Assembly (NCBI GenBank): GCA_905480125.1
Contig: CAJQPE010000028.1
Coordinates: 1-64,000 of the forward strand
Source: an uncultured Flavobacteriales bacterium
GTDB taxonomy: Bacteria > Bacteroidota > Bacteroidia > Flavobacteriales_G > NORP312
Direction: 5' to 3'
Length of the DNA stretch: 64,000 nt
The position numbers and the translations under genes are program-made. The number at the start of each line of letters is the position of its first letter. Within the stretch, counting starts at the first letter, position 1. Below the pieces are notes generated by a model. The model was not told the DNA's origin, did no database searches, and saw nothing but the letters and a program-made list of their open reading frames with translations. Shown here piece by piece: positions 23,488 through 24,981 of this stretch.

Positions 23488-24981
23488 TTACAATCTCTGA
23501 AGTGGTGTGCAAACTCCATCAACACAGCTATAACACTTCAACTTATCTTTAAATACTGATGATTTGAATATTGACTTATTCATCAGCATTCTGACACATT
23601 CTTGTATCCCTTCAATAATTGAGGGATGTGGATGCACTAATTCAGCTAAAATACTAATCCCCACATTCATCTTTATAAGCAATGCTACTCCTTGAATTGC
23701 GCTTGACGCATGCTCACCTACAGCCCGCATGCCAAGAATTTTCATCTCCTTGTCATTCGTTACTATAATCTTAAAGAATCCCTGCGTTTTACGCATTGCA
23801 ATAGCTCTTGCAATACATGAATAATCGATTTGCACAACCTTTACAGCAATGTTTTTCTTGAGGCAATCTTGCTCACTCATGCCCACTCCAGCAACTTCGG
23901 GGTCAAGAAACATAATACTTGAGATATTATCGTAGGATAACTTATCTGTTGTTTGCTTAAACATTAATTCAACTGCGTGCCTTGCTTCTAGTTCGCCCAT
24001 ATTTACTAATGCTACTCTTCCTGTAACATCTCCCACAGCATATATATTTGGAATATTGGTTTTCGTGTCGTCATCACCAATGTGAACACCTCTTTTACTC
24101 ATTTTGACACCCGCCTCTTCCATGCCAATGTTTTTAACATTTGGTGAACGACCAATAGAAATCATAGCTTTTTCAACTTGCATAATTTCCCTTGTACCAT
24201 CTGGCAAAGACACCTCAAACTCAACTCCTTCATCTTTATGATTCATAGAAACTAGAGTTACTGAATGAAATATTTCCACGCCTTTTTCTTGTAAATTATC
24301 GGCAACTAATTTGGCAACATCTTCATCTTCAAAAGGAAGAATTCGCTCAGCTCTATCAAGCAAGTAGACTTTAGTTTTTCCGAAATTGGAAAAAATAGTG
24401 GCGAATTCACACCCAATGACACCTGCTCCAACTATCACCAAACTTTTGGGAAAACCTTCAATCTGATGTATACCATCACTGGTCATTATAGTTTTTTCGT
24501 CTATATCGATATTTGGTAATTTTCTTGGGTGACTTCCTGTTGCTATTATTATATTTTCTGTCTCAATTATTTTCTTTTCTCCATTATGTTTCGTGACTTC
24601 AACTTGACTTGAATTCAACATCTTACCAAAGCCACGCTCGTAACGAAATACAATTTCTTCAGTTTCTGTCTGTAACAACTTTAAATGACATGAATACTGA
24701 AATTTTCGATCGAAAATTGCTTCATTCATTGTTCGCTTTACCTCTTCCCAACTAGTCTCAAATTTTTGTCTACCCGTAGAAACAACTGTCTTATTTACCT
24801 CATATACCTTTTGCGATAACTCCCAAAGTGTTTTAGAAGAAAGTGCACCATTATAAACCCCTGCTCCACCAACCTTATCATTTTCTACAAGGATGACTTT
24901 TTTTCCTAAATCAATCGCTCGCATGGCGGCAGCATAACCCGTAGGTCCGCCACCAATTATACACAAATCAAATTTTCCCAT
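23488..24981 (-). CDS. Dihydrolipoamide-dehydrogenase-like FAD/NAD(P) oxidoreductase lacking the CxxxxC motif
   Basis: 'FDLCIIGGGPTGYAAAMRA', NAD motif 'VIVGAGVIGCEFA', 'YAVGDVTG', 'HPHPSIIE' dyad; the active-site loop reads 'VGGAGVYNGALSSKTLWELS'. Confidence 0.88.
   Translation of the reverse strand: MGKFDLCIIGGGPTGYAAAMRAIDLGKKVILVENDKVGGAGVYNGALSSKTLWELSQKVYEVNKTVVSTGRQKFETSWEEVKRTMNEAIFDRKFQYSCHLKLLQTETEEIVFRYERGFGKMLNSSQVEVTKHNGEKKIIETENIIIATGSHPRKLPNIDIDEKTIMTSDGIHQIEGFPKSLVIVGAGVIGCEFATIFSNFGKTKVYLLDRAERILPFEDEDVAKLVADNLQEKGVEIFHSVTLVSMNHKDEGVEFEVSLPDGTREIMQVEKAMISIGRSPNVKNIGMEEAGVKMSKRGVHIGDDDTKTNIPNIYAVGDVTGRVALVNMGELEARHAVELMFKQTTDKLSYDNISSIMFLDPEVAGVGMSEQDCLKKNIAVKVVQIDYSCIARAIAMRKTQGFFKIIVTNDKEMKILGMRAVGEHASSAIQGVALLIKMNVGISILAELVHPHPSIIEGIQECVRMLMNKSIFKSSVFKDKLKCYSCVDGVCTPLQRL

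Follow-up and report, generated by a model that had tools for sequence, protein, structure and literature searches.

Introduction

In dihydrolipoyl dehydrogenase (LPD; also E3 or Lpd), reduction of the flavin by nicotinamide is aided by a Lys-Glu pair, and a His-Glu dyad provides acid/base catalysis in the oxidative half reaction. The C-terminal tails of MerA and TrxR act together with CxxxxC. LPD-like flavoenzymes without these cysteines are already known in yeast, and single-cysteine relatives are known in bacteria.

Irc15p of Saccharomyces cerevisiae is an LPD paralogue in which the cysteine pair is replaced by Tyr and Ala and the His-Glu dyad is kept; NADH reduces it at 250 s-1, and it has no disulfide reductase activity but is able to reduce menadione, DCPIP and ferricyanide (PMC6296175). 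The main role of Irc15p itself may be that of a structural protein or a sensor. The LpdA protein of M. tuberculosis has lost one cysteine together with the His-Glu dyad and is a quinone reductase (PMC6296175), and SthA keeps CXXXXT and has Tyr at the position of the dyad His (PMC9460512). In the open-access papers searched we found no description of a widespread, old bacterial clade in which both cysteines are lost and the dyad is kept, and a literature search on trypanosomatid "point mutation" paralogues of LPD yielded nothing useful.

Here we describe such a family, starting from one gene in a stretch of 64,000 nucleotides (the window) from an uncultured Flavobacteriales bacterium.

Results

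Gene, domains and profile scores

The features of the gene are listed below in window coordinates, all on the minus strand, with counts taken from the family alignment described further on.

23488..24981, minus strand: coding sequence of the LPD-like flavoenzyme without a disulfide (497 aa, ATG start)
24937..24954, minus strand: FAD-binding GxGxxG region, GGGPTG, residues 10-15 (positions 10, 12 and 15 invariant)
24820..24873, minus strand: loop of the lost redox pair, VGGAGVYNGALSSKTLWE, residues 37-54 (Gly41 and Ala46 in place of Cys; Lys50, Trp53 and Glu54 invariant)
24406..24429, minus strand: NAD(H)-binding motif GAGVIGCE, residues 185-192, ending in Glu192, the partner of Lys50 (E192 in 97/97)
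24355..24357, minus strand: Asp209, at the end of beta strand 2 in the NAD domain (D in 96/97, E in 1/97)
23611..23628, minus strand: catalytic dyad His452...Glu457, HPSIIE (H452 in 97/97, E457 in 97/97)
23491..23577, minus strand: C-terminal extension, residues 469-497, following the LPD core, with Cys483, Cys486 and Cys491 (kept in most members, cysteines variable)
23503..23541, minus strand: predicted beta hairpin, residues 481-493 (strands 481-487 and 490-493; mean pLDDT of 89 for 481-490)

The window protein matched the Pfam domains Pyr_redox_2 (PF07992; 185.7 bits, gathering score: 26.1) and Pyr_redox_dim (PF02852; 89.1 bits, gathering score: 25.3), each well above its threshold. Its best NCBIfam model was dihydrolipoyl dehydrogenase (TIGR01350), at 361.3 bits against a cut-off of 408.8, and scores likewise fell below the cut-offs for mercuric reductase (TIGR02053; 277.2 bits, cut-off: 454), SthA (NF003585; 276 bits, cut-off: 465) and NAD(P)H-quinone dehydrogenase (NF005883; 272.6 bits, cut-off: 479). 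None of the 25 NCBIfam matches listed for this protein reached the cut-off of its own model. By these profile cut-offs and by the residues that define each family, we rejected membership in SthA, MerA, LpdA (Rv3303c) or ordinary LPD. The only other Pyr_redox_dim match in the window genome is the LPD-like locus L173 (G000:C70:6624-6953), where the contig ends before the redox loop. A search for plasmid carriage found no match.

Because the loop of the window protein recurs unchanged in its two nearest relatives (93% and 84% identity), and because dN/dS against the nearest relative is ~0.08 (dN: 0.032; dS: 0.39), the cysteine-free loop is not an artefact. The gene is under strong purifying selection, and both a pseudogene and a sequencing, assembly or frameshift artefact were excluded by this conservation and dN/dS.

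Family membership and distribution

Searching 297 genomes from the phylum, we found six other orthologues at ≥50% identity; the remaining matches listed were ≤35% identical, and those among them that were read out carry an LPD-type CxxxxC. The alignment of the seven orthologues was then used as the query, which added 80 loci from named genomes, almost all of them Flavobacteriales-type MAGs; the isolates among them include Crocinitomix algicola and Acidiluteibacter ferrifornacis. Further members of the class brought the family to 97. A single copy per genome was found in 36/42 genomes of the order, 79/295 of the class and 7/297 of the phylum sample. At one locus (L090) the best open frame spans only 421 aa (frameshift or assembly error), and another (L112) is labelled Verrucomicrobia and nests among Flavobacteriales, its MAG probably being mislabelled.

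In a maximum-likelihood tree, built by a quick method and containing some long branches, all 97 members are separated from all of the references by a branch with SH-aLRT support of 100; the tree is unrooted, so the term "clade" assumes a root among the references. The mean identity between the family and Bacteroidota LPDs is ~0.30, and the lowest identity within the family is 0.38.

Loss of the redox cysteine pair and retention of the active site

We aligned the 97 distinct family members with 15 reference proteins (E. coli Lpd, SthA, Gor, RclA, Bacteroidota LPDs and Bacteroidota MerA-like proteins). The loop VGGAGVYNGALSSKTLW stands in the window protein where LPD has CxxxxC, and the two redox positions align with Gly41 and Ala46, in agreement with a preliminary description of this DNA that had noted both cysteines to be gone. 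Cys occupies position 41 in 15/15 references and in 0/97 family members (Gly in 85, Ala in 11, Ser in 1), and position 46 in 14/15 references and 0/97 members (Ala in 95, Val in 2). The missing cysteine pair is a family trait.

The surrounding machinery is retained. The same description had reported that an HPHPSIIE dyad region and the FAD and NAD motifs remain, and we found them at residues 450-457, 10-15 and 185-192, respectively; its term "non-canonical flavoenzyme" is borne out across the family, in which none of the 97 orthologues has either redox cysteine and the NADH/flavin machinery and His-Glu dyad are invariant. Lys50, Trp53 and Glu54 of the former redox loop are each present in 97/97. 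Since Lys50, Glu192, His452 and Glu457 are found in all 97 members and Asp209 in 96, flavin reduction and acid/base catalysis appear to be under selection despite the lost dithiol chemistry; with the remaining active-site residues invariant, the dithiol alone has been lost and the active site has not decayed. By nucleotide-specificity rules an acidic residue at the position of Asp209 favours NAD(H), and this residue suggests a preference for NADH. Residues that are invariant in the family (97/97 each) and not in the references include W53, E54, N327, E330, R334 and R464; to judge from the alignment, they suggest a specific function.

An AlphaFold2 model of the monomer, built with 35 family sequences, had a mean pLDDT of 87.2 and a pTM of 0.87. 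Only at residues 39-42, within the former redox loop, does pLDDT fall below 50. The best-matching solved structures are LPDs (PDB 6uzi; TM-score: 0.88; 26% identity), and no solved structure of the family itself was among the matches listed (LPD, GR, MerA, SthA, LpdA and similar).

The C-terminal tail

The window protein ends in KLKCYSCVDGVCTPLQRL and carries the tail motif KCYSCVDGVCTPLQRL. The CxxCxxxxC tail of the preliminary description is thus present in this protein; within the family it is a minority motif and not a family feature. Conservation of the tail lies elsewhere, at K473 (97/97), F477 (93/97) and D479 (87/97). Cysteines were counted in 90 members at position 462 (on the helix after the dyad), 90 at 483, 29 at 486 and 27 at 491. 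Read across these four positions, 62/97 members have the pattern CCxx, that is C462 and C483 only, 14/97 have CCCC, and seven other patterns account for 21/97; some members are without one of C462 and C483. On the tree, C486 changed at least 11 times and C491 at least 9 times; the two tend to change together, though not significantly. Position 483 is Ala in one clade (L052, L055, L056 and L077) and Ile or Ser in others. Seven members of one bacterial family (L166 and L252-L257) end before the tail cysteines and likewise have no redox pair. These seven form a divergent clade, ~40% identical, in which Gln replaces the first His of HPHPS.

The earlier proposal that the tail supplies thiols or binds metal did not hold up, as the cysteines vary among homologues and are absent from L166 and L252-L257. 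The tail-less clade is also without the redox pair, and the tail cysteines are not conserved in homologues, an outcome that the preliminary description had itself named as counting against its proposal. Being variable in the family and absent from the tail-less clade, the tail thiols are no general replacement for the lost disulfide. The first tail cysteine is common yet dispensable; with Cys462 and Cys483 each in 90/97 members, either may have a local role, going by its frequency in the alignment.

The hairpin predicted in the tail, which is mostly independent of the cysteines, may aid the dimer or bind a partner. In the LPD of A. vinelandii a contact between Tyr16 and His470 stabilises the dimer (PMC6296175). 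Position 16 looks equivalent in the family, and 80 of the 81 members whose chosen start reaches it have Tyr there; the other 16 sequences are shorter by choice of start codon. The C-terminal part may plausibly have a dimer role.

Gene neighbourhood

The neighbours of the window gene (ispE and a DUF4139 gene) are uninformative on function. Neighbours differed between clades and were mostly not conserved, and assignment of function from the neighbourhood was rejected. Three neighbours recurred in a survey of 119 loci, some of them overlapping or from close relatives. A divergently transcribed PF03692 gene (CxxCxxCC, putative zinc/iron-chelating) adjoins the family gene at 31/119 loci in several bacterial families (including L036, L040, L059, L181, L184, L191, L259 and L262), and a di-haem cytochrome c peroxidase gene (CCP_MauG), mostly convergent, was found at 25/119 (for example L041, L078, L099, L186 and L271). 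The membrane transhydrogenase genes pntAA-pntAB-pntB adjoin it at 5/119 loci, a pattern noticed after the fact: they are co-directional and downstream at L180, L184, L258 and L259 (three bacterial families: f73, f57 and f84), and at L105 a different pnt type is convergent with the family gene. At L258 and L259 a protein of ~272 aa is encoded between the family gene and pnt; in L258 it has no Pfam match.

Only pnt, among the three, bears on NAD(P)H, and its adjacency is weakly consistent with a role in nicotinamide-nucleotide redox balance. No pntB was seen in the window genome (83% complete), and co-presence of the family gene and pntB across the class gave no clear link, members of the order carrying the gene and almost no pntB.

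Discussion

The family resembles LPD in its fold (TM-score of 0.88 to 6uzi), its FAD and NAD motifs, its Lys-Glu pair and its His-Glu dyad, and differs from it in the absence of CxxxxC, a score under the NCBIfam cut-off, the tail hairpin extension and its position in a separate clade. Its best functional parallel is Irc15p, taken as an analogy from the described residue pattern and not as evidence of common descent: both are LPD homologues that have lost both redox cysteines, have Ala at the proximal position and keep the dyad, whereas Irc15p, which has Tyr/Ala, is a duplicate in yeast that shares 40% identity with Lpd1p, and the family is an old bacterial clade with Gly/Ala. LpdA (Rv3303c; PDB 1xdi; compared through the NF005883 model) is also LPD-like with an incomplete disulfide, but is without one cysteine and the dyad, where the family is without both cysteines and retains the dyad. 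MerA shares the LPD-like fold and cysteines near the C-terminus; it has CxxxxC together with a tail cysteine pair, whereas in the family CxxxxC is absent and the tail pair is not conserved.

We consider it probable, with some reservation, that the protein is a disulfide-free, NADH-dependent flavoenzyme of LPD fold that passes electrons straight to a non-disulfide acceptor. It would be an FAD enzyme that functions without a dithiol, presumably as a homodimer. NADH, the likely preferred nucleotide, would dock on the second Rossmann domain at the acidic Asp209 and reduce the FAD on its re face, helped by the Lys50-Glu192 pair. On the opposite face, the disulfide side of LPD, Gly41 and Ala46 would leave flavin C4a/N5 exposed, and the His452'-Glu457' dyad of the partner subunit would be retained as acid/base. 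Because the sulfur-based redox switch is lost, electron transfer would proceed directly off the flavin, from reduced flavin to a small acceptor other than a disulfide (resembling a quinone, a carbonyl or a nucleotide) held in what was the lipoamide channel. The tail hairpin would be a structural or dimer element and not a redox centre.

It is unlikely that the protein is instead a flavin-bearing pseudoenzyme or NADH sensor, which would change shape with FAD and NADH and act via a partner protein with little turnover. The conformation of Irc15p does respond to NADH and oxygen, and Irc15p is microtubule-associated (PMC6296175); the conserved tail of the family, with Lys473 in 97/97, the predicted hairpin and the family-specific invariant residues, would also suit such a protein. 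Full conservation of Lys50, Glu192, His452 and Glu457 is unexpected for a non-catalytic protein.

We regard as quite improbable a further type of soluble transhydrogenase, in which hydride would pass from the reduced flavin to another nicotinamide nucleotide (NADH/NADP+ exchange) without a disulfide, as in SthA. SthA is, like the family, an LPD-like flavoenzyme without a working disulfide and functions with CXXXXT in place of CXXXXC (PMC9460512), and membrane transhydrogenase genes adjoin the family gene in some relatives. However, the SthA profile score is far below its cut-off, the family has G....A in place of CXXXXT and retains the dyad His where SthA has Tyr, and Asp209 gives no hint of NADPH binding. 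SthA without Cys45 shows coupling reduced to 62% and increased H2O2 (PMC9460512). Ordinary LPDs, too, are reported to have transhydrogenation as a side activity.

That tail cysteines replace the lost disulfide in the manner of MerA or TrxR, or bind metal, is very unlikely despite the frequency of C462 and C483 and the joint tendency of C486 and C491, given the substitutions at 483, the tail-less clade without a redox pair, and MerA-like paralogues of the same class (L160, L165 and L172) that keep CVNVGC along with an SCCAS tail.

Returning to the disulfide-free NADH-dependent oxidoreductase, a wider reading is that the family constitutes a hitherto undescribed class of Bacteroidota enzymes whose LPD scaffold was remodelled for this dedicated purpose, with its own substrate pocket (W53, E54, N327, E330, R334 and R464) and a particular core redox reaction linked to NAD(P)H balance in these lineages; we put this forward only tentatively, as a possibility that we rather doubt. 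Annotation pipelines would tend to label the protein dihydrolipoyl dehydrogenase, a reaction whose known mechanism is impossible here. As an old clade in which the disulfide was lost and the rest of the active site kept, the family is a natural experiment on the LPD scaffold without its dithiol, and it makes the role of the His-Glu dyad toward a non-disulfide acceptor directly testable.
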